A DNA stretch of 48,501 bases from a virus, in IMG/VR virus record IMGVR_UViG_3300044568_003768, positions 1 to 48,501 of that record; one strand, given 5' to 3'. The translations under genes and the position numbers were made by a program. Below the pieces are notes generated by a model. It saw nothing but the letters and a program-made list of their open reading frames with translations. It ran no database searches and was not told the origin of the DNA. Shown here one piece after another: positions 4,141 to 36,673 of this stretch (position 1 is the first letter of the stretch; the number at the start of each line of letters is the position of its first letter).

Positions 4141-4184
4141 AGAAGGGATTATTTGGATATATAAAGTTCAAATAATCCTTTTTT
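4141..4184 (+). terminator. Intrinsic terminator with a promoter-like box in its loop
   Basis: GGATTATTTG (4146-4155) pairs perfectly with CAAATAATCC (4169-4178), extended by A-T pairs, and is followed by a T run to 4184. The 13-base loop holds GATATATA (4156-4163). It ends the repair operon. Confidence 0.8.
4156..4163 (+). promoter_or_regulatory. Putative phage late promoter GATATATA
   Basis: GATATATA, 21 bases before the GTG of the nucleotidyltransferase gene, in the loop of a terminator. The same octamer precedes six other units at 19-31 bases. Confidence 0.6.
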
Positions 4185-4979
4185 GTGGAGTTAGTAAAAA
4201 AATTCAACGATTACTTTCTGCTAGAAAAGCAACTCAATGCTTTCTATCACGATGAGCTAAATCCTAAGTTTTGGACTAAGCATGTGTCTAAGGACGGATC
4301 TAAAGAAAAGTGGACGATCGATCCGATCATCAGGAAGAAGCTTCTAAAGATCGGAAACGAATTCTACGACAAATTTGGTGATGTAATAGGGAAGGCGCCA
4401 ATAGTGGACATACAGCTGACCGGGTCCCTTGCAAACTACAACTATACAGATTTTTCTGATCTCGATCTACACGTTCTAGTAGACTTCAACAAGATCGACG
4501 CTCCCAATAAGGTTCTAAAGGCTGCGGTCGATGGAATCAGATTTGTTTGGAACACGAGGCACGACATCAAGATGAGAGGATATGACATCGAAGTTTATCT
4601 TCAGGACTCGAAAGAGCCTCACACTGCTTCTGGTTTATTCTCTTTGAAAGACAACAAATGGATTAGAACCCCCAAGTTCGATCCTCCGATGGTAGACGAA
4701 GACGATGTGGACAAAAAGGCGGACGGAATCAAGCAGGACATCAACAACTACGAGGCTAAACTCGTCACTGCTTCTGATCTACCCAAAGATTCTAGAAATC
4801 TGCACAAGAGGGCGAATGCTCTGAAGGAGAAGATCCATAAGATGAGAAAAGAGGGTTTACAAAAGGGTGGAGAGTTCGCAGTGGGCAATCTCGCCTTTAA
4901 GAAGCTCAGAAACGACGGATATATAGAAAAGTTGATTAACGTCATTTCTGAAGCATATGATAGAATCTACACAGAATAA
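4185..4979 (+). CDS. Polymerase-beta-type nucleotidyltransferase, possible internal head protein
   Basis: A 264-residue protein with the nucleotidyltransferase signature TGSLANYNYTDFSDLDLHV: Gly80-Ser81 followed by Asp92 and Asp94, the two metal-binding acids, and a likely third acid in YDIEVYLQ (Glu136). Members transfer nucleotides to RNA, proteins or small molecules; the substrate cannot be told here. The start is a GTG at 4185 because no ATG is available. The N-terminus MELVKKFNDYFLLEK resembles T4 capsid-targeting peptides, and the gene begins a unit that continues into head genes, so it may be packaged and injected, as T4 Alt is. The C-terminus has VISEAYD, a possible maturation-protease site. 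The fold call is good; packaging is inference. Confidence 0.75.
   Translation: MELVKKFNDYFLLEKQLNAFYHDELNPKFWTKHVSKDGSKEKWTIDPIIRKKLLKIGNEFYDKFGDVIGKAPIVDIQLTGSLANYNYTDFSDLDLHVLVDFNKIDAPNKVLKAAVDGIRFVWNTRHDIKMRGYDIEVYLQDSKEPHTASGLFSLKDNKWIRTPKFDPPMVDEDDVDKKADGIKQDINNYEAKLVTASDLPKDSRNLHKRANALKEKIHKMRKEGLQKGGEFAVGNLAFKKLRNDGYIEKLINVISEAYDRIYTE
4918..4925 (+). promoter_or_regulatory. Intragenic GATATATA box
   Basis: GATATATA near the 3' end of the nucleotidyltransferase gene, 64 bases before the next ATG at 4990. It could be a weak internal late promoter or chance; the spacing is longer than at the intergenic boxes. Confidence 0.3.
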
Positions 4980-4989
4980 AAGATACTAA

Positions 4990-7479
4990 ATGATAGTCTT
5001 ATTTAAAAAAGGAGAAACTTATAAAGCAGGCGGAGCTTTCCCCGTGGTGAGCATTCCAGTGGAAGCCCAAGGAGAGAAGAAAGACTTTAACGATTTCCAG
5101 TGGTGGGCACCGACCGACAAGTGGAACACCTGGCTGAAGGCTAACCCTAGAAGCTGGCAGGCTGAATCGGAAGAAACCGAAAAAGATTTCAAAAAGAGAC
5201 TATACGAATCCCTGGTCGAAGAAGGCGAGATAGATTCTAAAGTTTTAGACTTTACCTCTTTTAACTCACTCCTAGAGGCAGATGCTGCTGGGTCGGGTTC
5301 TTCTGTGAGCGTTTCTTCTGCAGAACAGCCAACCGAGGAACAGAAGAAAAATTACACTAAATTTGTTTTTGCCTATAATAGACTAAAAGAAGGCGGAAAA
5401 ATAAAAGATGAACTAAATGCAGCTTCTCTTAAAAAAGGAGAAGACTATGCGATCATCTGGGATCTACCGGGAAATACCGGTGCACCAGTAGTAGAAACTA
5501 GACAGGCCTACAGATCCAAAGTTGTTTCTGATCTTCCCAACGGGGTACTAGTGAAAATTGACGAGACCATTCCGTTCGGAAAATTCCAAGAGGAATCCGA
5601 TGCAGGAAATATCCTCATGAAAATAGCAGGATTTGGAAGTCAAATCCTAGCCGGAGGACTTACCGCAGCTGCAGCTATTGGAGGTGGAATTTGGGCGACT
5701 AAATCCATTGCTTCTAGGCTTTCTGCAAGGAAGGCAATCAGCGGAGGAACTTCCTGGCTTTCTAGAATTATTGGAGGGGGAGCAGAAAAAGCAGTCGCAT
5801 CAAATGCTTCGACCGCTGCAGTTGATGCAGCAGCAGCTACGGAACTAGAACTGGCAACCGGAGTAGGTGCGGAAGCACTAGGTGCAAGCGAGATTGCAGT
5901 AGGAGCAGCAGTTCCAGCAGCTGCAGAAGGCGGAGCGGGAGCAGCAACTATTGCAGCTGCAGAAAGCAACCCGGTAGGATGGATAGTCACAGCAGCTGTG
6001 ATTGCCGCAGGAACAATCCAAAGACTTGTTAACTGGACATCAGATGCTCAAGCTCCTAGACTCGGTCAAATCGAGGACGAGGGATGGGCGAGAGATTCAT
6101 TTATGCCTGGCACCATTCCGGACGGAGAAGCAATTACCATCTGCTGGACACAAGACGCAGGAAACAGTTGGTTTACTGATATTCTTTGGAACGAAGACAC
6201 CAGAACAACCATGGATCTAATTAAACTTGGAAACTTCAAAGGCAGATCTATTTTCTTGTTGGTTCAAATAAACTCTAAAGAGTATGATGCAGTTCTAAAG
6301 TCTAAAGAAATGATACTTCTTTCTTTTGATGGGAATGCAAAGTTCGAGAGGGGATACTTCGACAACGACGATCTAGAATTTGAAATGATCGCAGTTGAGA
6401 AGGGGGAATCTAATAATTTCATCAGCACAATCTTCGAGGGCTACTGCACTTGGGACGAGATGGAAGGAGCATACAGAGGAGCAGATGATTCTTTCGTTGG
6501 GGTTCCCGAGAATGCACCAGATGAATATTCTTTCCACTACAAACTAGGAAAAGGAGACAGAGACATAAACGTCACAGGAACACTGATTAAAGATATTGGA
6601 TCTTTGGATGTTATGAAAACAACATTTGTTGCCGGAAGCCCAACACCAAATGAATCTGCGTCAACTTTTAGGCTAGATATAGACTGGAAAAAAATCTCTG
6701 AATCCTCTGGGGTTCTTAGCTTTTCCGATTTCTCTAAACTTCCTTTAACTATGGTTCCAACCTTCGAGGCAGAAGGAGAAGAAGCATCAGCCGTAAAGAC
6801 TGACCCAGAAAAGGAAAATAAATATTTAACTCAGACCGAAAAAATTGCAGCATACGAGGTTAAGACCATCGAATTTGCCGACAAGGCTTTAGAAGATCAA
6901 CAACTTCCTGACCTAAAGACGTTTATAGTTCCTAACAATTATCTGGAAGCTACAGATAACGAGGAGATCGTGGTTCAACCAATCCAGGATGTAACCCTAA
7001 AGTACCCTAGAAGAGGAACTATCTCTGTAGAATCTGATGCTGCTCCAGAACCAGTTCCGGTTGGAGCAACTGGTGAGCCAGAAGTTGAAGGAGGAGTTCC
7101 GATCGAGGTTACTACAGACGAAGTGAAGATCAAATACAAAGACAATCCTGAGATTTTAAACAAGATTGGAATAGATGATTCCACCAAGATCAAGGATAAA
7201 GACAAAGATGACAAAATTAAGTTCTTAGACATGATCACTCCCGAAGAAAAGAAGGAAATTGGAATAGAAGATTGGGATTGGATTAAAAAGGTAAAAATTT
7301 ACAAAGACGGAAAGACGGGAGAACCCTACCTAATTAAGTTTAAATCTGGAGGCTTAGATTCAGATAGGAGAAGAAAAATCACTGCTGAAGACTCAAATTT
7401 TGATACTGCTCTAAAGGTTGCAAACCGAATTCAAGCGGGTTTCACTCAGGTTGAGGACAAGGATTCTGAAGAAAAGTAA
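4990..7479 (+). CDS. Unknown 829-residue virion-type protein with Ala/Gly-rich hydrophobic segments
   Basis: Not recognised. The N-terminal 100 residues are Trp-rich and polar and end in FTSFNSLLEADAAG, which looks like a capsid-targeting peptide with a protease site at Glu96|Ala97. Residues 207-236 and 326-345 are hydrophobic enough to span a membrane, and the 80 residues between and around them are roughly half Ala/Gly. Residues 360-620 are probably beta-rich. The C-terminal 200 residues are charged (K/D/E-rich) with an acidic, Pro/Val linker. Its place directly before the prohead protease suggests a head or connector protein; membrane-like helices suggest a protein ejected with DNA. A tape-measure role is unlikely because the tail genes lie elsewhere. 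Function is inference. Confidence 0.65.
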   Translation: MIVLFKKGETYKAGGAFPVVSIPVEAQGEKKDFNDFQWWAPTDKWNTWLKANPRSWQAESEETEKDFKKRLYESLVEEGEIDSKVLDFTSFNSLLEADAAGSGSSVSVSSAEQPTEEQKKNYTKFVFAYNRLKEGGKIKDELNAASLKKGEDYAIIWDLPGNTGAPVVETRQAYRSKVVSDLPNGVLVKIDETIPFGKFQEESDAGNILMKIAGFGSQILAGGLTAAAAIGGGIWATKSIASRLSARKAISGGTSWLSRIIGGGAEKAVASNASTAAVDAAAATELELATGVGAEALGASEIAVGAAVPAAAEGGAGAATIAAAESNPVGWIVTAAVIAAGTIQRLVNWTSDAQAPRLGQIEDEGWARDSFMPGTIPDGEAITICWTQDAGNSWFTDILWNEDTRTTMDLIKLGNFKGRSIFLLVQINSKEYDAVLKSKEMILLSFDGNAKFERGYFDNDDLEFEMIAVEKGESNNFISTIFEGYCTWDEMEGAYRGADDSFVGVPENAPDEYSFHYKLGKGDRDINVTGTLIKDIGSLDVMKTTFVAGSPTPNESASTFRLDIDWKKISESSGVLSFSDFSKLPLTMVPTFEAEGEEASAVKTDPEKENKYLTQTEKIAAYEVKTIEFADKALEDQQLPDLKTFIVPNNYLEATDNEEIVVQPIQDVTLKYPRRGTISVESDAAPEPVPVGATGEPEVEGGVPIEVTTDEVKIKYKDNPEILNKIGIDDSTKIKDKDKDDKIKFLDMITPEEKKEIGIEDWDWIKKVKIYKDGKTGEPYLIKFKSGGLDSDRRRKITAEDSNFDTALKVANRIQAGFTQVEDKDSEEK

Positions 7480-7532
7480 TAAAACCTTATCAAATACGTT
7501 AAAAAATAATCAATTTTTTCTTAGGAAAGGTA

Positions 7533-7540
7533 GATATATA
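7533..7540 (+). promoter_or_regulatory. Putative phage late promoter GATATATA for the protease-capsid unit
   Basis: GATATATA in the 86-base gap, 25 bases before the ATG at 7566. The leader after it is A-rich (ACAAACATAAAAATAC), as expected for strong Shine-Dalgarno-free translation. Confidence 0.65.
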
Positions 7541-7565
7541 ACAAACATAAAAATACAAAGTAGAA

Positions 7566-9629
7566 ATGCCCGAAATTTCAACAATTAACGAAAACATGGT
7601 TTTCATTCTGGAAAAGCAGAATCAGATCCTCGAAGCTTCGAAGGAAATGTCTTCTGAAGGGAAAGAGTATATCCTAAAGGGTATTGCTGCTCAGTTCGGA
7701 AAAGAAAACAACAACAATCGTATCTACGAAGAAGGTGAATACCTTCCTCACCTAGACTACCTAAAGGACAAGATCAAACAAAAAAGACTTGTTGGTGAAC
7801 TTGACCACCCAGAAAAATTCGATATTTCTCTTAACAACGTTTCTCACGTCGTTGAAGATCTGATGTACAATAAGGACGGAAGAATTCTAGAAATCAAAGT
7901 TAGATTACTAGATACCCCAGCAGGACAAATTGCAAAAAGACTTGTCGATGCGGGTGTTCCTCTTTCTATTTCTTCGAGAGCAGCAGGTAATGTTGGACCA
8001 GACAAGAAGGTTCAAATCAAGAAAATTTTCACGTATGACTTGGTAGCTGATCCTGGATTTCAGGATGCACAGCTTGAAAGAGTGTATGAAAGTGCTGGTT
8101 TTTCACACGACGAAGTTATATATAAGAGACAAAAAAGCGTCGTTCATAATCTAGAATGTGTAAATGAATCATTCGGATTAAAAAATGACGATTCTATGCG
8201 GATATATAATGTCAACGGAAACGAAGAATTTAAAAAAATAATCAACAAAGATAAAAATAAATCCACCATTATGGAGAGCAACAGAGAATTTGTAAGTGCT
8301 GAAGATCTTAACCAGTACACGATGTTCTTAAAGAAAGAAATGGAAGCTATGAAGGCTGAAATTTCTAGTTTAAGAGCAGAAAGAGTTGAAGAGGGACAAG
8401 CACTAAGCTTTAACAAGCCGATGCCTGCTATGGGCAATGGCTATAACAATGGTCCATCAGCTACAACAACTGACTCCATGGAAGACAGAGTTGGTAGACT
8501 AGAAAAATATTCTGACTATTTGGCAGAAACTCTTAACGGAGCAATCAAATACGGAGAATATCTAGCAGAAAATCTAGACAACAGCATCACTTACTCTAAG
8601 TATCTTGCTGAGAACTTGGACAAGAACATTTCTTACTCTAAGTATCTTGCAGAAAACGTAGACAAGTCTATCTCTTATTCTGAGTATGTTGCTGAGAATC
8701 TAGACAAGTCTGTAGAATACTCTAAGTACCTAGCAGAAAAAGTAGACGAGTCTATCCAGTATTCTGAATATGTTGCTGAAAAAGTGGACACTAATATTTC
8801 TTATTCTGAGTATCTTGCAGAGAACCTTGACAAAGGAATTTCTTATGCAGAATACCTAGCAGAAAAAGTAGATCAAGGTATCGGCTACAGCGAGTATATC
8901 GCAGAGAAACTAGATCAAGGTATCGGATACACCGAGTACTTGGCAGAGAACGTAAACAAAGGTATTGCTTACTCTGAGTATTTGGCTGAAAATTTAAACA
9001 AAGGAATTGCTTATTCTGACTACTTGGCAGAAAAAGTTAAAAACAATATCGCTTACTCTGAGTACATTGCAGAAAGCGTAAACTCTTCTCTAGGTGAAAC
9101 CATCAACGAGAACGTAAGAGAACAAGCAGATCTTGCTTCAAACGCAGGTCTATTTGAGTCTGGATTCGCAGGGGATTACACAACAATCTCTAGCAAGATA
9201 GACGCATTAATAGAGTCAGTTCAAACCCAAAAAACTGAATCACTCACCAAAAAAGCAGCTGAAAAATTCCAGCTACCTGCTAACACCCAAAAGGCAGACC
9301 AGGTTCTAAACGAGAACTTGAACGAAGAAACAACCCCAAGAACAGGTTACAAATTTGTAGACGAAGCTCCTGAAGAGTATGCTCAGGTTTGGGAGTCTCT
9401 AACTGAAGGACACAGACAATCTTTGATTGCTCAGTCATCTTTCTACAACTTAGAAACCCCTTATCAGATCAAAAACTTCTGGTCAACCCGTCAGCTTGGA
9501 AAAAATCTTGGACTTCAAAAACTTGTAGAGAACGAAGCAATCGAAACTCCAACCGTAGCTACCAACTCACTAGGATATTCATCTGATTATCTTTCTAGAG
9601 TTGCTCAGTCTTTGGAAGGTAAATTTTAA
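7566..9629 (+). CDS. Prohead maturation protease (gp21-like) fused to a repeat-built scaffold
   Basis: Residues 1-175 form a T4 gp21-type serine protease domain: KGIAAQFG near the start, GELDHP with the likely catalytic His81, and PLSISSRAAG with the likely Ser136/137. Such proteases digest the scaffold and trim head proteins. The rest, to residue 687, should be the scaffold (gp22-like): a helical segment from Met236, fourteen 14-residue repeats (315-510; YSEYLAENLDKGI type) and a helical C-terminal region. Sites VYE|SAGF (175) and VNE|SFGL (201) could release the scaffold from the protease. Met236 (ATG at 8271) is a possible internal start that would make scaffold alone, as in lambda C/Nu3. 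The capsid gene follows. In T4 these are separate genes 21 and 22; the fusion is the odd point. Confidence 0.85.
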   Translation: MPEISTINENMVFILEKQNQILEASKEMSSEGKEYILKGIAAQFGKENNNNRIYEEGEYLPHLDYLKDKIKQKRLVGELDHPEKFDISLNNVSHVVEDLMYNKDGRILEIKVRLLDTPAGQIAKRLVDAGVPLSISSRAAGNVGPDKKVQIKKIFTYDLVADPGFQDAQLERVYESAGFSHDEVIYKRQKSVVHNLECVNESFGLKNDDSMRIYNVNGNEEFKKIINKDKNKSTIMESNREFVSAEDLNQYTMFLKKEMEAMKAEISSLRAERVEEGQALSFNKPMPAMGNGYNNGPSATTTDSMEDRVGRLEKYSDYLAETLNGAIKYGEYLAENLDNSITYSKYLAENLDKNISYSKYLAENVDKSISYSEYVAENLDKSVEYSKYLAEKVDESIQYSEYVAEKVDTNISYSEYLAENLDKGISYAEYLAEKVDQGIGYSEYIAEKLDQGIGYTEYLAENVNKGIAYSEYLAENLNKGIAYSDYLAEKVKNNIAYSEYIAESVNSSLGETINENVREQADLASNAGLFESGFAGDYTTISSKIDALIESVQTQKTESLTKKAAEKFQLPANTQKADQVLNENLNEETTPRTGYKFVDEAPEEYAQVWESLTEGHRQSLIAQSSFYNLETPYQIKNFWSTRQLGKNLGLQKLVENEAIETPTVATNSLGYSSDYLSRVAQSLEGKF
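8201..8208 (+). promoter_or_regulatory. Intragenic GATATATA box before the internal scaffold start
   Basis: GATATATA inside the protease-scaffold gene, 62 bases before the in-frame ATG at 8271, followed by very A-rich sequence. A possible promoter for a nested scaffold message; chance is not excluded. Confidence 0.35.
8508..9095 (+). repeat. Fourteen tandem 42-base repeats coding 14-residue helical units
   Basis: Fourteen in-frame units of 14 residues each, consensus YSEYLAENLDKGIS. Positions Tyr1, Tyr4, Ala6, Glu7 and hydrophobic residues at 5, 9 and 13 are nearly invariant. No insertions break the 42-base period. Third-codon positions differ between copies, so selection has kept the protein pattern. 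Fourteen residues are two heptads, which suits a long coiled coil or helical rod for the prohead core. Confidence 0.9.
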
Positions 9630-9661
9630 ACAAACCAAAAAAACAAAAATAAAAAAAAGTT
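9630..9661 (+). promoter_or_regulatory. A-rich translation leader of the major capsid gene
   Basis: The 32 bases between the scaffold stop and the capsid ATG are about 80% A with no G until the last few bases and no Shine-Dalgarno sequence. In Bacteroidota, A-rich unstructured leaders favour strong initiation, which suits the most abundant virion protein. Confidence 0.5.
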
Positions 9662-11377
9662 ATGAAACTTATTAACGAACAAGAAATCTTCGATACCTGG
9701 GCTCCTATCATCGAGTCTAAGACTGGTATCAACGATTCATCAAAAACTCAATGGCTTTCTAAGTACTGCCACTACCACTCATTGAACGAATCAGCTGGTG
9801 CTTACAACTCTCTAGCAGTTGTTAACGGTATGGGTTCAGTTCAGCCACCTTCTTTCCCAGCTTCTACGCAGGCTACTTCAACAGGCGGACTTTCTCCTAA
9901 CCAAGGATTTTACAGCTCGACCTGGCAGGGTTCTGGTGACAAATTCCCTTCACTTCTTCCATTGGCAATTCAAGTTGCTGCGAAGACTGTTGGTTTTGAC
10001 ATCGTTCCAGTTATTCCTATGTCTGGTCCTTCAGGAGTTCTTTCTTACCTAGACTACGTTTACGCAGGTGGTAAAATTTCTCCTAATGCTAACCAAGTTG
10101 GATCTTCAGCTGCGGAAGCTTTGGCTGTTGCTCCTACCATGATTAAAGTTCCTGTAGGTGCTACAGCTACTAACTATTCATTTGTTGTAGGAACTACCTA
10201 TTACATTTCTAACCCAACCTCTTCTGTAGGAACAATCACTGCAGCATTCGTTGGTCTATCTAGAATTGATGGTTTCCCAATCTTCAAAATCACTGCTATC
10301 ACTGCAACTGACACTGTTGCTGACATCGTAACTAACGGATCTCTAATTGGAACTACCTTTGGTGGTCAAGAAGCAGGATTCATCAACGGAGTTGCTCAGC
10401 TAGTAAAAGCTCTTGAAGATCACATCCAAGGTTTCTCCGGAGCTGGTTTCTATGACAACCAAGCATTCCAAGGTCCTTATGTAGATGGTACTAAGACTTA
10501 CAACCCAATGCTAAGAAGCGTAGCGGAAAGCACTTACTACAACTCAATGGGTCTAACAACCTTCACTAAGTTCGTAGAAGCTGACACTTTCCAAGTTGCT
10601 GCTTCTGTAACAACTGAGCAAATTCAGGATCTTAACAAGCAGTTCGGTATCGACGTAATTTCTATGATCGAGAACGCACTTGTTAACGAGGTTTCTCAGT
10701 CTATCAACAAGCACATCCTTTCAAGAGCATTCCAACTAGGATGGTCTAACTGTGTTAAGTTCAACCAAATCGAAGGTCAAAACCTTAACTTGAACCTAGT
10801 TCTTAACGGTGCTACTGGTTCTGCTAACGGTTTGTCTTACATGGACAAAACTGATACACTAGCTACTATGACTCTTCCTCCTGGTCCAGCTAACACTTCT
10901 TACGAGAACTTGTCAACCCTACAAAGAAGACTATTCTCTAGAGTTCTAGCAGCTGCTAACGTTGTAGCTAACAGAGGTAGAAGAGGGCCTGCTAACTTCA
11001 TCGTAACTAACGCTAACCTAGCGTCTGCAATGCAAGATATCAGCCAATTCACTTTCGCTCCATTCTCTAACACACTTACTCAAAACAACGGAACCCTATA
11101 TCCTGTAGGTTCATTGGCTGGTATGACTGTATATGTTGACCAGAACATGCAATACAACGATACTAGAATCTGTGTAGGTAGAAAAGGTGGTGATGACGAA
11201 CCAGGTCTTAAGTTCATGCCTTACATGATGGCGGAGTCAATCCAAACCATTTCTGAAGGTACTATGTCTCCTAAGATCGCAGTTAAGAGCAGATACGCAC
11301 TAGTAGAAGCAGGTTTCAACCCAGAAACTTTGTACTTCACTTTCTACGTACAAGTACCAGTAGGCGGATTGAACTAA
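9662..11377 (+). CDS. Major capsid protein (T4 gp23-like, HK97 fold)
   Basis: A 571-residue protein placed directly after the protease-scaffold gene, as gene 23 is in T4 (521 residues). The N-terminus (MKLINEQEIFDTWAPIIES) parallels the gp23 start (LLNKWKPLLE). The sequence YHSLNESAGAYNS at 39-50 matches the gp23 maturation site pattern, with cleavage expected after Glu43. Then come a Gly/Ser/Pro-rich N-arm, FPSLLPLAIQVAAKTVGFDIVPV-type sequence equivalent to the gp23 region around its P-domain start, and a long conserved C-terminal half (FIVTNANLASAM, GSLAGMTVYVDQNM, SRYALVEAGFNPE). Codon use is restricted to a few codons, as in highly expressed genes. A strong terminator follows. The middle (residues about 140-250) looks like an added domain. 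Confidence 0.93.
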   Translation: MKLINEQEIFDTWAPIIESKTGINDSSKTQWLSKYCHYHSLNESAGAYNSLAVVNGMGSVQPPSFPASTQATSTGGLSPNQGFYSSTWQGSGDKFPSLLPLAIQVAAKTVGFDIVPVIPMSGPSGVLSYLDYVYAGGKISPNANQVGSSAAEALAVAPTMIKVPVGATATNYSFVVGTTYYISNPTSSVGTITAAFVGLSRIDGFPIFKITAITATDTVADIVTNGSLIGTTFGGQEAGFINGVAQLVKALEDHIQGFSGAGFYDNQAFQGPYVDGTKTYNPMLRSVAESTYYNSMGLTTFTKFVEADTFQVAASVTTEQIQDLNKQFGIDVISMIENALVNEVSQSINKHILSRAFQLGWSNCVKFNQIEGQNLNLNLVLNGATGSANGLSYMDKTDTLATMTLPPGPANTSYENLSTLQRRLFSRVLAAANVVANRGRRGPANFIVTNANLASAMQDISQFTFAPFSNTLTQNNGTLYPVGSLAGMTVYVDQNMQYNDTRICVGRKGGDDEPGLKFMPYMMAESIQTISEGTMSPKIAVKSRYALVEAGFNPETLYFTFYVQVPVGGLN

Positions 11378-11406
11378 TCTTAATCTTTAAAGTACATTAC
11401 GTTTAT

Positions 11407-11440
11407 AAAAAACCTCTGGATTTATCCAGAGGTTTTTTTT
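11407..11440 (+). terminator. Strong intrinsic terminator after the capsid gene
   Basis: CCTCTGGA (11413-11420) pairs with TCCAGAGG (11425-11432) around a TTTA loop, flanked by an A run before and eight T after. It closes the protease-capsid unit. Confidence 0.92.
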
Positions 11441-11472
11441 GTTGACCCTCTAGTAGAAAAATAAAACCGGAG

Positions 11473-11480
11473 GATATATA
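11473..11480 (+). promoter_or_regulatory. Putative phage late promoter GATATATA
   Basis: GATATATA between the capsid terminator and the coiled-coil gene, 25 bases before its ATG. No partner box is conserved upstream at the other copies. Confidence 0.65.
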
Positions 11481-11505: not shown

Positions 11506-12588
11506 ATGACATTAATCCCAAACTTTCAAGAATTTGAGGAAACCAATCCACTGAATGGAAAAATTACTCCAGCTCTTGCTGAATCCCTTGCTGAATATTT
11601 TGCAGACCAGGAAGGAATTAGCGAGTCTAGCGCATTGGATTCTATTAAAAATACCCTTTCTAAGACTTTTCTTGGATCCCTTTCCTATATTAGCATGATT
11701 GATAAAGTCAGAGCTGAGGTTCTAAAGGCGGAGAAAGAAATGTTATCTAAAAGATATGCTTACGAGGATGAGATCGATTCTCTAAAGACCAATCTGAAGG
11801 AAATTTCCAAGACCAAAGATGCTTCTGCAAACATTGCTAAAGCAGAAAGAACTATCTCTAACAAGACTAATGAGTATCAGACCTACACTAAAATGGTGAA
11901 GGCCAGGATAGAAAAGGCTTTGAAAACACTCTCTGATGCAATTAAGGGCAACAAGAGAAGAATGGAATATTGGGAAGCTGGTAAAGCTGAGGACGAACTA
12001 GTTCTTTCCGAGTTTGAATATGCTCTTGCAAAACAGAGAGCTTCTGCTTCTCCTGAGGAGTTGAAGTCTATAGAGGCAGAAATCAAGAAGGCAAAAGAAG
12101 AGGTCCAAAAGTCTCAACAGGAGCTAAAGGATGAAGCTGAAAAGTCTAAGAAGAAAGAAGGATCTGAGAATATCGAAGGGGTTAAAACCCTAGATAAACC
12201 CTCTTCTGATTATAGACAGTCACTAAAGAACAAAAAGGGAAGAATGGAAGCTATTGCAGAAATTGAGCACCAGATCATCGATCTTAAGAAAGAATTGAAA
12301 TCTGTTAGAAACAATTTTGATAAAAAGCAGATAGAGAGAAAGATCTCTAGTCTAACCGGAACTAAGAAGGACATCGAAAATTTAGATAAAAAATCATCGG
12401 GTGTGAAGATCCTTCCTACCCAGAGAGATTTTGAATCGATCAATAAAGTTGCTAGAGAACTTGAAAAAATGGATCTAGAGAAGGATAAATCTCATAAAAA
12501 AGTTGGATTTGATATCCCTACTTCTTCTGCAAAAAAAGCAGAAACTACGAGCAAGGTAAACAAGACCATTAATAAAAAAGAAAAATAA
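11506..12588 (+). CDS. Coiled-coil protein, probable internal head protein (paralogue of the next gene)
   Basis: A 360-residue, highly charged protein that is almost entirely alpha-helical, with heptad-like stretches at about 60-150, 165-215 and 245-290. The N-terminus MTLIPNFQEFEETN resembles T4 capsid-targeting peptides. The central segment GNKRRMEYWEAGKAEDELVL aligns with GNSRLHKYWDLKKAEAELEV in the next gene, so the two arose by tandem duplication. The first gene of a four-gene unit between the capsid terminator and the terminator at 16185. No enzyme motif is seen. Internal or prohead-core protein is the best guess from position, composition and N-terminus. Confidence 0.65.
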   Translation: MTLIPNFQEFEETNPLNGKITPALAESLAEYFADQEGISESSALDSIKNTLSKTFLGSLSYISMIDKVRAEVLKAEKEMLSKRYAYEDEIDSLKTNLKEISKTKDASANIAKAERTISNKTNEYQTYTKMVKARIEKALKTLSDAIKGNKRRMEYWEAGKAEDELVLSEFEYALAKQRASASPEELKSIEAEIKKAKEEVQKSQQELKDEAEKSKKKEGSENIEGVKTLDKPSSDYRQSLKNKKGRMEAIAEIEHQIIDLKKELKSVRNNFDKKQIERKISSLTGTKKDIENLDKKSSGVKILPTQRDFESINKVARELEKMDLEKDKSHKKVGFDIPTSSAKKAETTSKVNKTINKKEK

Positions 12589-12592
12589 GTCT

Positions 12593-16227: not shown

Positions 16228-16235
16228 TATATTTG
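16228..16235 (+). promoter_or_regulatory. Bacteroidota-type -7 box TATATTTG before the kinase gene
   Basis: TATATTTG ends four bases before the ATG at 16240, so the message may be leaderless or nearly so. A TTTG lies 16 bases upstream in the terminator T run, somewhat close for a -33 element. The box shares ACCGTATATTTGT with the one at 2616. Confidence 0.65.
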
Positions 16236-16794: not shown

Positions 16795-18195
16795 ATGTGT
16801 GGAATCCTATTAACGCTTGACGGTTCTGAGACCAGTCTAAATTCAATTAAACATAGAGGAATAGAAAGAACAGTGGTCGAGAAGTCCGGCGTGTTTCTGT
16901 GTCACCACAGACTCCCTATTCAGACCTCAGACGGGGACGACTGGAACCAACCCAAGGAGATCTCTCCCGGGATCTATTTAATGTTCAACGGAGAGATCTT
17001 CAACTACGACAGATCTGCCTATTCTTCGGATACTGATTATCTCTGCAATCTATTCAGAATGTACAAAGGAGGATCTTTTGAGATGTTCTGTGCAATGTTT
17101 GTTCCTCACGTTCAGACTTGGGACGGATTCTGGGCTATCGTTATCTATGATTCCAACACAGGAGACATTATCTGCTTTACTGATCCACTGGGCAAAAAAC
17201 CCCTCTACTACAGCGAGAAGGGTGAAATATCATCTGAGATAAAGTCTCTGGCCTACAACCAAAGTCCTATTGATCGGGTTTTTATCTCTGAGGTTAAAAA
17301 GTGGGGATATAATACAGACAACAGAACACCTTACACTGACGTTAAGAGGTTCCTGCCTAACACAATCTATTCCTACAATCTCCAGAGTCCAGACTTTAAG
17401 TCCACCTTTCCTGAATACTATAAGTTATGGAACTACCCAATTACCGAGCTAGTTGGAAAATCCTATGAAGACCACATGGAGTGGCTCTGGGCGAAGATGA
17501 TCGAGTCTGTTAAGAACAGGTTGATCTCTAAAAATTATCCAATCTCTCTTCTGATTTCAGGCGGACTGGATTCCTCTATCATTGCAGCTATCCTGGAAGG
17601 AACCGATTCTGACGTCACCTGGTACAGCATCGAAAACGGAGAATCTGAATTTGTTAATCTTCTAGCTGATAAGTTTGATAAGAAGGTTAATTTCCTCCAG
17701 TACGAGATGGATGAGAATCTAAATCAAGAGATCTACCAGTACTGGAACGAAACCCCAATCGATTTAGGCTCCGTTGTTCCCCAGTACCATTTGTTCAAGG
17801 CTATCAAGCAGAACAGCGACCACCGGATAGTTCTTTCTGGAGACGGAGCAGACGAGTTGTTCGGTGGATATAAGAGAATCCACGAGTATGACTCACAAGG
17901 ATCCGATGTCTTTGAAGAGCTAAGCTTCTACCATCTTCCTAGACTGGATAAGATGTCCATGGCCCACACTTTGGAGCTTAGAAATCCCTTCTTGAATTTA
18001 GAGATAGTAACGTTTGCCCTTCATCTTCCTCTAGAATGGAGAAAAGACAAAAAGATTCTAAAAGACACTTTTGGACCTCTTCTTCCTGACGAGATCGTCA
18101 ACAGAAAGAAAGCCCCTCTCAAGAATCCAGGGATCAAAGAAGACAAGCTAGCATATAGATACAAAGCGATAGATCTGTTCCTAGGGGAAAGATAA
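16795..18195 (+). CDS. asnB: Glutamine-hydrolysing asparagine synthetase (AsnB family)
   Basis: A 466-residue class-II amidotransferase/PP-loop synthetase. Cys2 (MCGI) is the glutaminase nucleophile; HRG (20-22), HHRLPI (37-42) and FNGEIFNY (64-71) complete the glutaminase site. The synthetase domain has the ATP-binding SGGLDSS (255-261), SGDGADELFGGY (348-359) and LDKMSMAHTLELRNPFLN (384-401). All expected motifs are present, so it should be active, making asparagine or amidating a related acid with glutamine nitrogen. It is shorter than E. coli AsnB (554), mainly at the C-terminus. Phage-borne asnB is known in some large phages, including cyanophages, but is uncommon. The pairing with a P-loop kinase leaves open a role in nucleotide modification. 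Confidence 0.9.
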   Translation: MCGILLTLDGSETSLNSIKHRGIERTVVEKSGVFLCHHRLPIQTSDGDDWNQPKEISPGIYLMFNGEIFNYDRSAYSSDTDYLCNLFRMYKGGSFEMFCAMFVPHVQTWDGFWAIVIYDSNTGDIICFTDPLGKKPLYYSEKGEISSEIKSLAYNQSPIDRVFISEVKKWGYNTDNRTPYTDVKRFLPNTIYSYNLQSPDFKSTFPEYYKLWNYPITELVGKSYEDHMEWLWAKMIESVKNRLISKNYPISLLISGGLDSSIIAAILEGTDSDVTWYSIENGESEFVNLLADKFDKKVNFLQYEMDENLNQEIYQYWNETPIDLGSVVPQYHLFKAIKQNSDHRIVLSGDGADELFGGYKRIHEYDSQGSDVFEELSFYHLPRLDKMSMAHTLELRNPFLNLEIVTFALHLPLEWRKDKKILKDTFGPLLPDEIVNRKKAPLKNPGIKEDKLAYRYKAIDLFLGER

Positions 18196-18210: not shown

Positions 18211-18218
18211 GATATATA
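18211..18218 (+). promoter_or_regulatory. Putative phage late promoter GATATATA
   Basis: GATATATA just after asnB, 19 bases before the ATG at 18238, followed by an A/T-only leader. Confidence 0.65.
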
Positions 18219-18237: not shown

Positions 18238-18873
18238 ATGTCTCAAATTATTAAAAAATTCTCAGATTTCCAAAGCACGAATGAAGATTTTTCACTATCT
18301 TCTCTTATAGGTTCTGCAGGTGAAGGACTAGTTGATGTTGCAAAAGGCAAGCTAACCGAGTATCTCTATGGGTATTTTGGTGTAAAACCAGAATCACTGC
18401 TAGGAACTATCCTAACCAACTTTGTTGAACAAGTTGATATTGCTGAATATCCTCAGTTCATCTCTGGTGAAATAAGTGTCAGAGATATGGCTCCTAAGCT
18501 AGCAGATGCAACTATCGAGACTATTTCTGAAATGGGGATAGATGGAATTGCTACCAGATTCAAAGTAGAAGATAAGAACGGCTGGATCTATAGAACACTG
18601 AAAGAGATGCTTTCAAATCAAACCAGACAGGCAGATCTAAGAAAAACCCTAGTTGAGCTTTGGACCTGGGTCCTTGGTGGATCTTCTTCTGGATCTCAGA
18701 GTGCATTTCCGAATACTATGGGAAAGAATCCTCTGTCGGTAACCCCACAAGAAGCACAAAAACTAGCTTCTAATCCTGCAGTTCAAAGAGCAGCAGATAA
18801 ATCAAATACAAATCCAATGGATCTAATTAGCAACCTTCTAGGGGGAACCCAAGGAAGAGGAATGGTTGGATAA
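18238..18873 (+). CDS. Unknown virion protein candidate with capsid-targeting-like N-terminus
   Basis: A 211-residue protein not recognised. The N-terminus MSQIIKKFSDFQSTNED fits the pattern of short hydrophobic, F-x-x-F, then acid, shared with other proteins near the head genes. Residues 20-120 look helical with amphipathic character (GSAGEGLVDVAKGKLTEYLY), and the C-terminal 60 residues are Ser/Gly/Asn-rich and probably disordered. It is the first gene of a unit driven by a GATATATA box, so it is probably a late gene. Membrane-associated or head-internal roles are both possible. Confidence 0.6.
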   Translation: MSQIIKKFSDFQSTNEDFSLSSLIGSAGEGLVDVAKGKLTEYLYGYFGVKPESLLGTILTNFVEQVDIAEYPQFISGEISVRDMAPKLADATIETISEMGIDGIATRFKVEDKNGWIYRTLKEMLSNQTRQADLRKTLVELWTWVLGGSSSGSQSAFPNTMGKNPLSVTPQEAQKLASNPAVQRAADKSNTNPMDLISNLLGGTQGRGMVG

Positions 18874-19260: not shown

Positions 19261-19974
19261 TTAATCGGGATCAATTTCCTGAATAAATCTTTCCTTAGCT
19301 ATTTTAAAAATCTCCGAGCTTTTATCAAAGTCCTCGGAGATTTCTATGATTGTGCAGGGGAACTTAGTCCCGTCTTGAATTCCCATCGAAACCAGAGTTT
19401 CGTGGAGGATAAACTCGTAAGACATTGAATATTTACTGTTCAGGATGGATATCCCCTTTAGAACTACCCCTCTTCGAACCTCCTCTCCTATTTTGATCCC
19501 TGTCTTCCTCCACCAGTAAGGAAAAACTTCGTCTGTCGACATGTTTCTAAAGATGGTAATTCCACTCTCCTGCGAACTTTCGGGAACTTCTAGATTATAC
19601 ATCTTAATTCTTCCCTCCATCTGCTTCCAGAGATTTATCCCTAGATCTGCATACTTATATAAAACTTTAAGAGAATTTTCTATGATTGATCTAACCTCTT
19701 CTTCTTCCTCCCCCGACATCTTATTCTTCCTATAGAAAGAAAGAATCTCCTCGTCCTCCTCTGTAATAAATAGTTCCTTATATCCGTCCATGGTCCAGTT
19801 CTTGTGGAAGTAATCTAGATCCTTGATCATGGAGAATATCTTCTTCGTGGGGGAATAGACATTATTTTTTTTGATCTCCTCGTTGATAGATTTCAGGAAG
19901 TCTAGCAGAATATAGTACTTGTGTTCTGCGTCTATTGGAGACTTGAGAAACCAAATTTGACTGATATCTTTCAT
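19261..19974 (-). CDS. Unknown protein, the only minus-strand gene
   Basis: A 237-residue protein. It contains aromatic- and charge-rich helical segments (SFYRKNKMSGEEEEEVRSII), a central FPYWWRKTG motif and a mixed C-terminal half (YSMSYEFILHETLVSMG). No known family or catalytic motif is seen, and there is no membrane segment. It is convergent with the upstream gene and divergent from the next. AATATATA on the minus strand (20003-20010) is 28 bases before its start, so it may use the same class of promoter as the virion genes. A lone reversed gene may be an accessory cargo gene. Confidence 0.7.
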   Translation of the reverse strand: MKDISQIWFLKSPIDAEHKYYILLDFLKSINEEIKKNNVYSPTKKIFSMIKDLDYFHKNWTMDGYKELFITEEDEEILSFYRKNKMSGEEEEEVRSIIENSLKVLYKYADLGINLWKQMEGRIKMYNLEVPESSQESGITIFRNMSTDEVFPYWWRKTGIKIGEEVRRGVVLKGISILNSKYSMSYEFILHETLVSMGIQDGTKFPCTIIEISEDFDKSSEIFKIAKERFIQEIDPD

Positions 19975-20002: not shown

Positions 20003-20010
20003 TATATATT
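20003..20010 (-). promoter_or_regulatory. Putative late-type promoter AATATATA for the minus-strand gene
   Basis: Read on the minus strand this is GAGAATATATAGAG, a one-base variant of GATATATA, 28 bases before the ATG at 19974. Its spacing agrees with the plus-strand boxes. Confidence 0.45.
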
Positions 20011-20064: not shown

Positions 20065-20072
20065 GATATATA
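20065..20072 (+). promoter_or_regulatory. Putative phage late promoter GATATATA
   Basis: GATATATA, 21 bases before the ATG at 20094, in the divergent gap with the minus-strand gene. It probably drives the following structural genes. Confidence 0.65.
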
Positions 20073-20093: not shown

Positions 20094-20543
20094 ATGGCAA
20101 GGGTAGACGACTATAACACTTATTTAAGCGGAAAGACTAAAAATTTTTCTAACGAGCACTATTTTATCTGTGATCTCAAGTACACTGATATTATTGTAAA
20201 GGGGAATCCGCCCGAGATTATGAACGTGGATGATGCTAAATGTGAGGTTGAATACGAGGCAGCTGTGACCAGGAACAAAGCAGGAATTGACGGTGTTGAT
20301 TTCCAGATTCATAGAATAGAACTTGAAATTGACGTTGACGATTATCCGAACGACAAAAAGACTTTTGAATTTGAAATCGAAACGGGTGTAAATATAGATC
20401 CTGCTATGGTGATTGTCGAAAAACTAGACTACATTATTCCTACATATCCAAAAAGAATCACCATCGACATGAGAAAATCCATGGAGGTGAGAGACTTTAA
20501 AGTCGTTGTCGAGTTTGGAAGAGACGAGTACTATGAAAGCTAA
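20094..20543 (+). CDS. Unknown beta-rich protein, possible tail or connector component
   Basis: A 149-residue protein with many alternating hydrophobic and charged residues (IHRIELEIDVDDYP, FEFEIETGVNI, ITIDMRKSMEVRDF), so it should be mostly beta-sheet. No signature motif. It is the first gene after a late-type promoter and overlaps the next gene by 11 bases. Position and fold suggest a small virion structural protein. Confidence 0.6.
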   Translation: MARVDDYNTYLSGKTKNFSNEHYFICDLKYTDIIVKGNPPEIMNVDDAKCEVEYEAAVTRNKAGIDGVDFQIHRIELEIDVDDYPNDKKTFEFEIETGVNIDPAMVIVEKLDYIIPTYPKRITIDMRKSMEVRDFKVVVEFGRDEYYES

Positions 20544-21618: not shown

Positions 21619-22266
21619 ATGTTGAAATTAATAAGCAGTATATTTAAAAAGAAAAATAAAATGAACTTTGCAGAAAAAACTCTGGAAGAACTTGAGACTG
21701 AGCTAAAAAATTCAGATTTTCAGTGGATAAAAGGCGAACAAGCTGGTATGGTAGAAAAATACGACAGCGTTGTAGAATCAGGAGGAATGAAGTTTGTTTA
21801 CTTCCAAGGAGGAGGAAGAATGAATGTTGAACTTCTTTCTGAATTTATGGATCTTTTCCCAGCTACCCCTGTAGAATTTGGAATTTCTCATCCACCTACC
21901 CCTAAGAAAGCACAAGATAAAAGGGGATCAGTTAACTCTGTAGACTACGGTAACTCAGTTCAAGTAGGTGTAGAAGAATCTCCGATATATAAGCTACTAA
22001 AAAAGCAAAAACCAAACTGGGTCAATGTTAACATTAGTCTGAAGCTAAATCTACCAACAAAGTCTCTTTACAACGTCCTTGTGACCTCTTTTGAAGATGC
22101 AGAGACAGAAATAGCAAGCTATGTGACAGAAGGAGTTGAGATTGAAGACATTAGAAATGCAATCGCAGAATCCATTAAAACTTCTTTCTACGAGACCAAA
22201 AAGACCAGTTCAGTTAAGACAGTTAAAAAAGAAGAAATAGAACAAGATGAACTTTCCGAAGACTAA
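21619..22266 (+). CDS. Unknown protein
   Basis: A 215-residue protein with no recognised domain. A second start at 21661 (MNFAEKTLEE) is plausible: it has a very A-rich leader, and GTATATTTA (21639-21647), one base off the Bacteroidota -7 box, lies just before it. The N-terminal half has MKFVYFQGGGRMN and a PATP turn; residues 125-190 (NWVNVNISLKLNLP, then two helices) resemble a small alpha/beta domain. The C-terminus is Lys/Glu-rich. It overlaps the Nudix gene by 20 bases. Confidence 0.6.
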   Translation: MLKLISSIFKKKNKMNFAEKTLEELETELKNSDFQWIKGEQAGMVEKYDSVVESGGMKFVYFQGGGRMNVELLSEFMDLFPATPVEFGISHPPTPKKAQDKRGSVNSVDYGNSVQVGVEESPIYKLLKKQKPNWVNVNISLKLNLPTKSLYNVLVTSFEDAETEIASYVTEGVEIEDIRNAIAESIKTSFYETKKTSSVKTVKKEEIEQDELSED

Positions 22267-23138: not shown

Positions 23139-23471
23139 ATGCAGGAAGATTTGCAAGAGATTAAATTTTTTCTAGCGGAATGCTCTCTAAAAGAAGCAAA
23201 GAAGAAGTCCTCTACAGAGGAAGACCTATTTGTTGTCGACATTGGAAAAATTATTAAAGACCTTGGATACGACACAGGAAGTCTGTCTAGAGAATCTGAG
23301 TTTGTAATAAACTACTCAGTTCAGAAGAAAATTACCCAAGGAATATATAGTACGAAGTGTAGCGGAATCTTGGTGGTTCATAAGAACATCTCCGAGTCTT
23401 TTGTTGAAAATTTAGAACATTTTCTAGAAGACCTAAGGGGTGAAATTTCTTATACCATCCAGTCTCTATAA
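23139..23471 (+). CDS. Small unknown protein
   Basis: A 110-residue acidic protein with a helical N-terminus (DLQEIKFFLAECSLKEAKKK), a central sheet-like part (EFVINYSVQKKITQGIY) and a C-terminal helix (SFVENLEHFLEDLRGE). No known domain. It lies 17 bases before the first large tail gene and may be a small tail-assembly protein. Confidence 0.55.
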   Translation: MQEDLQEIKFFLAECSLKEAKKKSSTEEDLFVVDIGKIIKDLGYDTGSLSRESEFVINYSVQKKITQGIYSTKCSGILVVHKNISESFVENLEHFLEDLRGEISYTIQSL

Positions 23472-29846: not shown

Positions 29847-29855
29847 TACGTAATT

Positions 29856-30527
29856 ATGAGCAACCCTCACGTCCATCTTGGAGAAATAGTAGATATAAAC
29901 GACCCTTTAAAACAGGGAAGAGCGAGAGTTAGAGTCTTTGGATTTTTTGAAGATTTAGAAATTGAAGATATCCCCTGGGCCGAGCAGATCTCGGGTCTTT
30001 CTTTTTCCTCCTCCCGTGGGAATGGAAACATAAGCGTTCCGAGAGTTGGAGCCGTTGTTAACGTTCAGTTCGATGGTTCTAACTACTACAAGGTCTTCTA
30101 TGAATTTGAAAAGGAGACTTCTCCTGATTTGTTGGCTGAAATTTCAGACTCTTATGAAGGAGCACAATCTCTAATGTACGACACGGAAGCCCAGCCGGGT
30201 CTTCTTAAACTTATCTACACCAGAAAAAAAGGACTAATTCTTGGACTAGGAGATGCTACTGTTCAACTCGACACCCAGGACGGAGGTCAACTGAGAGTTG
30301 TAATCCAGATGGGAAGGGACCAGATCAGAATGGAGAACAATAAAGTTATAGTCAACTCCAATAACATTGAGCTAGGGGAGAATGCGGTGGAGGCAGTTAT
30401 TAAAGGAAACACCTTCCAGGCCTACTTCAATTCCCACACCCATATTGGAAATTTAGGTGCACCCACCAGCCCACCAGTCGTACCATCAACACCTAATCAT
30501 CTATCGACGGTTAGTAAAACCCGATAA
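29856..30527 (+). CDS. Baseplate spike protein (gp5/gpV-like) without lysozyme domain
   Basis: A 223-residue protein. Residues 1-85 form a gp5-type OB domain (LGEIVDINDPLKQGRARVRV, then IPWAEQIS and VGAVVNVQFD). Residues 115-180 are short beta repeats fitting the trimeric beta-helix. The C-terminus has FNSHTHIGN with His194 and His196, the H-x-H pair that binds iron at the tip of P2 gpV-type spikes, followed by a Pro-rich end (PTSPPVVPSTP). T4 gp5 carries a lysozyme domain; this one does not. It should form the membrane-puncturing tip below the hub. Confidence 0.85.
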   Translation: MSNPHVHLGEIVDINDPLKQGRARVRVFGFFEDLEIEDIPWAEQISGLSFSSSRGNGNISVPRVGAVVNVQFDGSNYYKVFYEFEKETSPDLLAEISDSYEGAQSLMYDTEAQPGLLKLIYTRKKGLILGLGDATVQLDTQDGGQLRVVIQMGRDQIRMENNKVIVNSNNIELGENAVEAVIKGNTFQAYFNSHTHIGNLGAPTSPPVVPSTPNHLSTVSKTR

Positions 30528-30533
30528 TCCAAC

Positions 30534-33233: not shown

Positions 33234-33235
33234 AA

Positions 33236-33243
33236 GATATATA
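33236..33243 (+). promoter_or_regulatory. Putative phage late promoter GATATATA
   Basis: GATATATA immediately after the 899-residue tail gene, 31 bases before the ATG of the S1-domain gene. Confidence 0.6.
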
Positions 33244-33274
33244 CAAGAATTCACCTTTTTAAACAACAAATATA

Positions 33275-34444
33275 ATGGAAAAAATCTCTTTAGAAAAAGA
33301 AGAAAAAGAAACCTTTAACTGGGACATTCCCAGTGGACTGACCGTAAACAGAAAGATCGAAACACCAGGACACACTAAAATCTATTCCCACGAGGGATAT
33401 GCTTCTGCCTTGTATGCTCTCTATCGTGGAGCTAACCCTGCTACCTTTAGCTCGTCTAAAGATCTAGAAGATGGGGAAATCTACAAATGTAGAATTACGA
33501 CAGTTAGCGAAAATACTGCTCTTGGACACACCGAGACTGGCCAGACCATCTTTATTGATCTAAAGAAAGAGAGAAAAGATGCAATTAGATTAAACATCCA
33601 AGGTCTCGACTTCTCAGTTTCTAGTGAAATTGAAGCTATAGTTAGAGACATCAACGGAACTTACCATGGTTCAGTTGTTGAGTGTTATGTTCATAGTTTG
33701 AAGGCAGAATTTTTTGACCAAATTAAGAAGTGTTCTGTTGCATATCCTGCTAAAATTGAATCTGTTAATAAAGGTGGATTCCTAGTAGATATTTCTGGAG
33801 TTAAATGCTTTATGCCTGGTTCTCTTGCAGCAGCAAATAAAATTACAGACTTCGAATCTTACTTAGGAAAAACCCTCTATGTGATGATCGATGGCTATGT
33901 TCAGGTTAAAGATATTTTCGTAGTTTCCTATAAGAAGTATTTGAATCACATCATGAATTCTAAAATTCAAGAGCTAGATCTTACCAAGAAATACAAAGGT
34001 TCTGTTACCGGATCTTCTTCGTTTGGGCTGTTTGTTGAATGGGAAGACATCTACACCGGACTAATTCACAAGACAGAATTTGAAAATCAAATTGTTCAAG
34101 GATTTAATCCTGGGGACGAGATTGAATTCTACGTGAAAGAAGTTAAGGAAGACAACAAATTGACCTTGACTTTTGGAGCTCCTGTGGAGAAGACGGTTAA
34201 GATCTACGAGATTAAAGAGGCAATTGACAATGGAACTATCGAAGCTATGGCTGCGATTATTAAATACAAGAGAAAAAACGGATGTCTAGTTGAAGTTCCC
34301 GAAACAGGAATGATGGCGATGATTCCACAAGAAAAAGTAACCGAAGATCTTAAAAATGCTAAACCTGGAGACAGGATTGGAATTTTGATCTACGAAGTAG
34401 ACCCAGTAATGGGAAAAATATTCGCTAAACCTGTAAATGTCTAA
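33275..34444 (+). CDS. Multi-domain S1-like RNA-binding protein
   Basis: A 389-residue protein with at least two S1-type OB domains. Residues 154-220 (PAKIESVNKGGFLVDISGVK, FMPGS, then VVSYKKYL) match the typical S1 repeat of ribosomal protein S1, and residues 236-301 (YKGSVTGSSSFGLFVEWEDI, GLIH, PGDEIEFYVKEV) are a second. Residues 66-125 and 315-386 look like degenerate copies. Ribosomal S1 binds mRNA near the start codon and matters most where Shine-Dalgarno sites are absent, as here. A role in selecting phage mRNA is possible. It has its own late-type box and overlaps the next gene by eight bases. Confidence 0.8.
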   Translation: MEKISLEKEEKETFNWDIPSGLTVNRKIETPGHTKIYSHEGYASALYALYRGANPATFSSSKDLEDGEIYKCRITTVSENTALGHTETGQTIFIDLKKERKDAIRLNIQGLDFSVSSEIEAIVRDINGTYHGSVVECYVHSLKAEFFDQIKKCSVAYPAKIESVNKGGFLVDISGVKCFMPGSLAAANKITDFESYLGKTLYVMIDGYVQVKDIFVVSYKKYLNHIMNSKIQELDLTKKYKGSVTGSSSFGLFVEWEDIYTGLIHKTEFENQIVQGFNPGDEIEFYVKEVKEDNKLTLTFGAPVEKTVKIYEIKEAIDNGTIEAMAAIIKYKRKNGCLVEVPETGMMAMIPQEKVTEDLKNAKPGDRIGILIYEVDPVMGKIFAKPVNV

Positions 34445-35858: not shown

Positions 35859-35860
35859 CC

Positions 35861-36634
35861 ATGACCGAAGCGGAACTAATCCAAGAAATTAAAGACGACC
35901 TATCGGCGTCTTGTTCACTTCCATATAACCTTAACGATCAAGAGATCACTAGGATTATCAATAGGGCAAAAGCCTGGATGTACGACAACTATCAGTATGC
36001 GGTAGAGCAGAGATTCTTTGTTCTAGGATCTACTCTTTTTACTAGCCCAGAATTCCTAAGAACTAGACAGATTCAGCTTCCTGCTAAAATCGTCACAGTT
36101 TTTGACGTTAGAGAAGCAAACAATCCTGGGGTTTCAGGAAACCCAGATAGAGACTTTGGTAGCTCTAAGCTTCTTGGTTCTGAACTTCTGCTTTCACCTT
36201 TTATGGGGGACAACTTAGTTTATAGAACCGTTATGTATTCTTATTTTGATCTTGCAAAAGCATATCTTCTAGAAACTTTTGCTTTTAGATGGAACAAGAA
36301 CACTAAAAAATTAACCATCTTGGGTAGAAATCCTGCGGGATCCCCTAATAACGTTGGAACGGGCCCGAATAACTATGTTAGATCTGTAGCAGTTAGCTGC
36401 TTCGTTGCGATCGAAGATTCTGAACTTTTTGACGATGAGCTATTCTCCAGATACTGCAGGGCAAAAGCTAAACAACAGCTAGCGAGAGTAATCAGTGCAT
36501 TTAACTATAATCTTCCGGGTGGAGTCCAGGTTAATTCTGGAGATCTAAAAGCCATGGGAGACGTTGAAATGCAAGAAGTAATGGACATGATCAACGGAGA
36601 AAACACTCCATCTTACTTCCTTCAGTGGAACTAA
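35861..36634 (+). CDS. Virion structural protein near the baseplate genes
   Basis: A 257-residue protein beginning MTEAELIQEIKDDLS. It has a helical N-terminus, a strand-rich middle (LRTRQIQLPAKIVTVFDVRE), and a tail with FNYNLPGGVQVN and TPSYFLQWN. I recall close relatives annotated as structural proteins next to gp25 in large phages, but cannot name a T4 counterpart. It follows the amidoligase gene by two bases and is followed by a late-type box, so it closes this unit. Neck or baseplate roles are both possible. Confidence 0.6.
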   Translation: MTEAELIQEIKDDLSASCSLPYNLNDQEITRIINRAKAWMYDNYQYAVEQRFFVLGSTLFTSPEFLRTRQIQLPAKIVTVFDVREANNPGVSGNPDRDFGSSKLLGSELLLSPFMGDNLVYRTVMYSYFDLAKAYLLETFAFRWNKNTKKLTILGRNPAGSPNNVGTGPNNYVRSVAVSCFVAIEDSELFDDELFSRYCRAKAKQQLARVISAFNYNLPGGVQVNSGDLKAMGDVEMQEVMDMINGENTPSYFLQWN

Positions 36635-36665
36635 TCTTTTTTATTTTCCCAGCCTTTTTATGTTG

Positions 36666-36673
36666 GATATATA
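36666..36673 (+). promoter_or_regulatory. Putative phage late promoter GATATATA
   Basis: GATATATA in the gap before the gp25-like gene, 20 bases before its ATG. It probably drives the baseplate-wedge and fibre genes. Confidence 0.65.

Follow-up and report, generated by a model that had tools for sequence, protein, structure and literature searches.

The late promoter of phage T4 (Straboviridae) is the octamer TATAAATA (PMC2988020), a single -10-like box without a -35 element that precedes virion genes and depends on a sigma-2 protein of the gp55 family. A T4-like single box with a relaxed first base, NATAAATA, has been published for the cyanomyovirus S-PM2 (PMC2984593), with a gp55 homologue in all. 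The T4 review describes the clamp-binding epitope of gp55 as widely kept (PMC2988020), and a survey of jumbo phages has already reported minimal sigma factors in the broad group (PMC7824862), so that the presence of such a sigma is not in itself new. In the open-access literature, to which our search was limited (subscription papers lay outside its scope), we found no description of the octamer considered here, GATATATA, as a phage promoter or of a late promoter for this group of phages.

The window, that is, the whole stretch of DNA analysed, is a 48.5-kb viral record that covers the structural region of a huge phage, related to T4 and with a contractile tail. Identified genes include the prohead protease (7566-9629; phrog_207), the major capsid protein, MCP (9662-11377; phrog_138/28442), and two baseplate wedge genes (36694 and 37075; phrog_261 and phrog_219). 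The MCP is 62-94% identical to those of 80 viral contigs, several of them > 200 kb. Its remoter relatives, LR756500, Prevotella Lak phages, Tenacibaculum PTm1, Flavobacterium MaF61 and Chryseobacterium MA9V, are nearly all phages of Bacteroidota. An asparagine-synthase-like protein (PF00733 plus glutamine amidotransferase domains) is encoded at 16795-18195, between structural units.

The first-pass annotation of this DNA had proposed GATATATA as a counterpart of the T4 late promoter, a reading now supported by its enrichment, its conservation among orthologs, its association with virion genes and the presence of a gp55-like sigma. We consider it highly probable, from sequence comparison, that GATATATA is the late promoter of a clade of huge T4-related Bacteroidota phages, most likely read by the gp55-like sigma. 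The candidate late promoter boxes of the window, with their retention in orthologs, are as follows.

630-637, + strand: variant AATATATA near gene 642-1175; A-variant or GATATATA in 36/44 orthologs; missed by the first-pass annotation
4156-4163, + strand: box GATATATA upstream of gene 4185-4979; kept in 52/52 orthologs
4918-4925, + strand: box GATATATA within the 3' end of gene 4185-4979; 49/53 aligned orthologs
7533-7540, + strand: box GATATATA upstream of the protease/scaffold gene 7566 and the MCP gene 9662; 58/58 orthologs
8201-8208, + strand: box GATATATA within the protease gene; 62/62 orthologs
11473-11480, + strand: box GATATATA upstream of gene 11506-12588; 51/56 orthologs
18211-18218, + strand: box GATATATA upstream of gene 18238-18873; 39/40 orthologs
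20003-20010, - strand: variant AATATATA upstream of the reversed gene 19261-19974; 22/27 orthologs
20065-20072, + strand: box GATATATA upstream of gene 20094-20543; 27/27 orthologs
21984-21991, + strand: box GATATATA within gene 21619-22266; 5/5 aligned sequences
33236-33243, + strand: box GATATATA upstream of gene 33275-34444; 4/4 orthologs
36666-36673, + strand: box GATATATA upstream of the baseplate wedge genes (36694, 37075); 4/4 orthologs

When the window was searched again, all ten GATATATA copies were found where they had been placed, every one on the + strand. The seven that lie upstream of genes end 21, 25, 25, 19, 21, 31 and 20 nt ahead of the start codon, and the minus-strand AATATATA at 20003-20010 lies, as claimed, ahead of the reversed gene, at 28 nt. 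The probability that at least 7 of 10 copies fall 19-31 nt upstream of a start is ~1e-14, for an interval that was picked after looking at the sites. Besides the + strand AATATATA at 630-637, there are further copies of this variant at 23342-23349 (+ strand) and at 36668-36675 (- strand), the latter overlapping the 36666 site. Chance, or an artefact of AT-rich repeats, might be suspected of such an octamer, as TATATA is common in AT-rich DNA and an AT-rich Lak phage exhibits no excess over the backward-read control. Nevertheless, the ten copies compare with 1.4 expected from shuffles (shuffle maximum 5), backward-read control patterns were rarer than the motif in 12/12 relatives, and the box is conserved in dozens of divergent orthologs. 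These counts, with the de novo enrichment and the ortholog and intragenic conservation described below, lead us to reject a chance origin, the probability of which we regard as negligible.

Because the window is itself a 48.5-kb record, the genome-wide motif test was run on relatives, four of which (434, 271, 349 and 230 kb) were read whole, with genes called by a simple dicodon method. Over these whole large contigs the anticipated enrichment upstream of genes was evident: with no prior motif given, GATATATA was the top enriched 8-mer in non-coding DNA upstream of genes in all four, with 60 copies observed against 3.9 expected, 29 against 1.8, 48 against 3.8 and 30 against 0.8. Altogether 151 of 264 copies end 12-40 nt ahead of a start codon, compared with 2.5% for letter-shuffled 8-mers, and the median distance from box end to start codon is 22 nt. 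Most single base changes cut this start-codon preference to 0-19%. The sole tolerant position is the first, where A gives 37% and T 31%, the latter from few copies.

The first-pass annotation had seen no second conserved box, and this holds in a sequence profile built from 170 sites in five records, in which no position 18-45 nt upstream exceeds 0.1 bit. Downstream, about four nearly free positions are followed by A at 79%, 69% and 66% (offsets 12-14). Numbering the box -13 to -6, as in T4, puts these A-rich offsets at -1 to +2, where transcription would be expected to start. T4 TATAAATA sites, measured in the same way, lie 13-34 nt from the start codon, like those of GATATATA; here T4 was compared through its known box, a de novo search in T4 having ranked other words top. 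The two octamers are equal at six of eight positions, and differ in that T at -13 is G here, and A at -9 is T.

The retention of GATATATA at orthologous positions bears out the seven sites of the first-pass annotation, and the box is nearly absent at most other genes, where its presence among orthologs is about 0%. Counting distinct upstream sequences only changes little (gene 4185, 43/43; 7566, 46/46; 11506, 43/45; 18238, 32/33; 20094, 21/21). For the reversed gene 19261-19974, all of the boxes kept in 22/27 orthologs read AATATATA and none GATATATA. The exceptions among the other genes are 642 and 4990, which follow the 630 and 4918 sites, and 43708 (2/2 relatives); others are a box at a few orthologs of 1194, and A-variants at 13738.

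The tight distance of the box ahead of start codons would also suit an RNA-level leader element, such as a translation enhancer or processing site, the more so as translation in Bacteroidota depends on A-rich leaders and not on pairing with a Shine-Dalgarno sequence. However, most genes within units, the capsid gene included, lack the box, the spacing between it and the A-rich start zone is fixed, and within coding sequence it is conserved 62-71 nt upstream of the nearest in-frame internal ATG. The 4156 copy, moreover, occupies a terminator loop, a sensible location for a promoter. We regard a leader element as very unlikely, and interpret GATATATA as a promoter in what follows. The terminator concerned is the following.

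4140-4184, + strand: intrinsic-terminator-like hairpin with a T-run, whose loop and upper stem contain the 4156 box

The predicted RNA fold of this hairpin has an energy of -19.7 kcal/mol (z -7.1). Upstream of gene 4185, arms of at least eight pairs are retained by 32 of 40 distinct orthologs, compared with 1.1% of shuffles, and the stems of the orthologs differ in sequence (e.g. GGATTATTTG, AAAGCTTTTCTT and TTTTTTTTCTAC). Judged by sequence and predicted fold, the candidate late promoter at 4156 is nested within the terminator of the previous unit.

The first-pass annotation had also recorded three intragenic copies, at 4918, 8201 and 21984, and had treated them as exceptions. Their presence stands, their treatment as exceptions does not, since GATATATA is conserved at these places in orthologs: in protein-guided alignments the exact octamer is retained in 62/62 sequences at 8201, 49/53 at 4918 and 5/5 at 21984. 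At 8201 the residue encoded just ahead varies (K, M, R or Q), yet its codon must end in G; the following Ile is always ATA and the Tyr always TAT, as the octamer demands, a spelling used by only 21 of 1252 Ile-Tyr pairs genome-wide. The 8201 orthologs share ancestry and are not independent trials; the codon pattern nonetheless indicates selection acting on the DNA. We therefore reject the view of these copies as noise, given their conservation through constrained codons, and all three probably act as promoters. The 4918 box, which ends 64 nt ahead of gene 4990, probably serves that gene (4990-7479). In 61 of 62 sequences the 8201 box is followed after 62-71 nt by an in-frame ATG, which in the remaining one lies at 26 nt. 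In the window this ATG opens a possible nested frame.

8271-9629, + strand: possible nested scaffold ORF, beginning at an internal in-frame ATG that is codon 236 of the protease ORF

The conserved internal promoter and the ATG at 8271 suggest that a scaffold protein (452 aa in the window) is encoded in nested form, and the 8201 box probably drives this internal product together with an extra MCP transcript. The predicted arrangement, a scaffold gene within the protease ORF, can be likened to lambda C/Nu3.

In the four genomes and the window, annotated virion genes fall in GATATATA units; in the four genomes, neck, tail sheath, portal and protease genes each head the unit to which they belong. 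Some replication genes also sit downstream of GATATATA units. Our initial placing of replication genes in late units was partly corrected, because a middle-type motif lies nearer to several of them. The window holds three promoter classes, for which we use the names early, middle and late by analogy. Besides the late boxes given above, these are:

1688-1716, + strand: middle-type two-box promoter, GAAAC-N17-CTATAAA, upstream of the UvdE-like gene 1723; motif in 26/45 distinct orthologs
2616-2623, + strand: host-type (early) -7 box TATATTTG upstream of gene 2637; TAnnTTTG in 11/18 distinct orthologs
16228-16235, + strand: host-type (early) -7 box TATATTTG upstream of gene 16240

Distinct orthologs of gene 16240 are divided between TAnnTTTG (26/46) and the middle type (20/46). 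The two-box motif, GAAAC-N16/17-(C)TATAAT, occurs in upstream regions without either of the other boxes 13-15 times, against 0.7-1 expected, and was seen in genomes G001, G004, G006 and G007, for instance ahead of gp32-like and gyrB genes. The host-type class (T-tract, CG, TATATTTGC) dominates one region, ~195-263 kb of G004. There and elsewhere, these early promoters have a strongly conserved T-tract upstream and a YCG element, TTTTTTTA..YYCGAA..TTTTC TATATTTGC, and thus more elements than the plain Bacteroidota promoter.

A gp55-like sigma, which the first-pass annotation had suggested looking for, was detected by profile (phrog_234; E 1e-14 to 1e-17) in 11 of 12 large relatives. It is a single-copy protein of 118-119 aa. 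Its gene lies outside the window, and is inferred for the window's phage from the relatives; the closest copy, L294, is on the same contig as L012, whose MCP is 87% identical to that of the window. In the four genomes read, the sigma gene adjoins a head-completion nuclease gene, and the capsid gene lies 17-19 kb downstream of it. Upstream of the sigma gene (L253-L332), 17 of 29 distinct sequences have middle-type boxes spaced exactly 17, with GAAAY as -35 and the consensus GAAAY-N17-CTAAAAT; in the 29, other spacings are almost never seen, the host type occurs in one and GATATATA never.

The protein spans the sigma-2 region of T4 gp55 and then stops, without T4 segment 3. In all aligned clade members it ends after the sigma-2 domain, and the T4 C-terminal clamp-binding epitope is absent. 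Since the T4 review describes this epitope as widely kept, we class the system as a variant form of T4-type late transcription, which it resembles, and not as a standard member. An AlphaFold model shows a four-helix domain (mean pLDDT 83); among PDB folds it best matches T4 gp55 as seen in open promoter complex 7d7c (Foldseek probability 1.00, TM 0.73 by query length, E 1.4e-3). A sequence search of the PDB with A1 does not count as independent evidence, since A1 includes T4 gp55. The seven residues that form the promoter pocket of T4 gp55 were defined in PMC7892883; N13, F86, Y97 and T99 are identical in the clade sigma, L54I and R57K are conservative, and H95F is changed. We considered whether H95F, in the -9 pocket, causes the change from A to T at -9. 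This is unsupported, as P-HM2 also has Phe and the cyanophage box keeps A, the Phe having been seen in P-HM2 and the published box being that of S-PM2. The gp55 of cyanophages is a longer protein (156 aa in P-HM2) and, by eye, the P-HM2 protein is likewise without a clear clamp epitope, so that loss of the gp55 tail may not be unique to the clade. Profiles of the gp45 clamp (phrog_223, PF02916) had no match in the relatives, but almost none in controls either, and inspection by eye near the gp32-like gene revealed nothing convincing for gp33.

Other relatives were informative as to the range of boxes. In LR756500, a 462-kb uncultured phage whose MCP is only 45% identical to that of the window, GATATATA is again the top upstream 8-mer (8 against 0.9 expected, 160 kb tested), and a tail-less gp55-like protein of 124 aa is present. 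De novo search of MaF61, a cultured Flavobacterium phage, gave GATAAATA, which shares G at -13 and a Bacteroidota host with the clade; its MCP is a distant relative (30.6% identity). Its box has A at -9, and its gp55-like protein has a long sigma-2 insertion; in sequence, GATAAATA is intermediate between the T4 and clade boxes. The MaF61 protein, ORF75 (PQ858689.1 54739-55476, minus strand), is annotated as hypothetical, and its insertion amounts to ~130 aa inside the sigma-2 region. De novo searches gave TATACATA in PAU, the host-type motif only in PTm1, and no clear late box in MA9V-2.

An alternative reader of the GATATATA promoter would be a host sigma, either an alternative or ECF-type sigma or host RpoD with a phage cofactor, in place of the gp55-like protein. 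The connection we draw between sigma and box comes from homology and co-occurrence within one clade, phages can redirect host sigmas, and the same genomes do use host-type TAnnTTTG promoters for another gene class. The host primary promoter, however, consists of the TAnnTTTG -7 box and an upstream (-33) element, both missing from GATATATA, and we reject GATATATA as a promoter of this host type. It is instead T4 TATAAATA that GATATATA resembles in sequence, in geometry and in the absent -35 box; the gp55 pocket residues for the -10 box are largely retained, and MaF61, with a gp55-like protein, has the intermediate box. A host sigma is in our view an unlikely reader.

From the motif, its position, its conservation, the gene classes that it precedes, and the sigma, both its occurrence and its predicted fold, all read from sequence, we infer transcription start at GATATATA, the exact start base, the pairing of sigma and box, and the timing. 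In the mechanism we envisage for the gp55-like sigma, GATATATA, with G or A first, would be the sole, -10-like box of late promoters. The small phage sigma would most likely use its sigma-2 domain to bind the core RNA polymerase of the host and would open the DNA at the box, and RNA would start at an A ~5-6 nt downstream, giving a leader of ~15-20 nt ahead of the start codon. With the sigma gene under a middle-type promoter, late genes would be turned on after the sigma is made. Host-type early promoters, two-box middle promoters and late boxes likely complete a cascade. More tentatively, and with rather less than even confidence, we propose that a minimal, tail-less gp55 runs late transcription untethered from the replication clamp, timing being set by the middle-type promoter of the sigma gene.

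For these huge phages, of which little is known outside metagenomes, a promoter code becomes readable, with TATATTTG as early, GAAAC-N17-CTATAAT as middle and GATATATA as late signal, and expression class can be assigned from sequence to hundreds of unknown genes. The gp55-family proteins and their boxes, TATAAATA, NATAAATA, GATAAATA and GATATATA, form a natural series for asking how a minimal sigma reads DNA, in which the cyanomyovirus box has A at -9 and the clade box T. The clade may also be an example of late transcription that has lost its coupling to the clamp.

Separately, the family B DNA polymerase of these phages is apparently split. In G004 its parts lie at 133102-134508 and 148970-150118, with equivalents in G001, G006 and G007, and ~14-22 kb separate the two genes. 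The product of the second closes with NLFMINALF or a similar sequence, which may be a tail for clamp binding.
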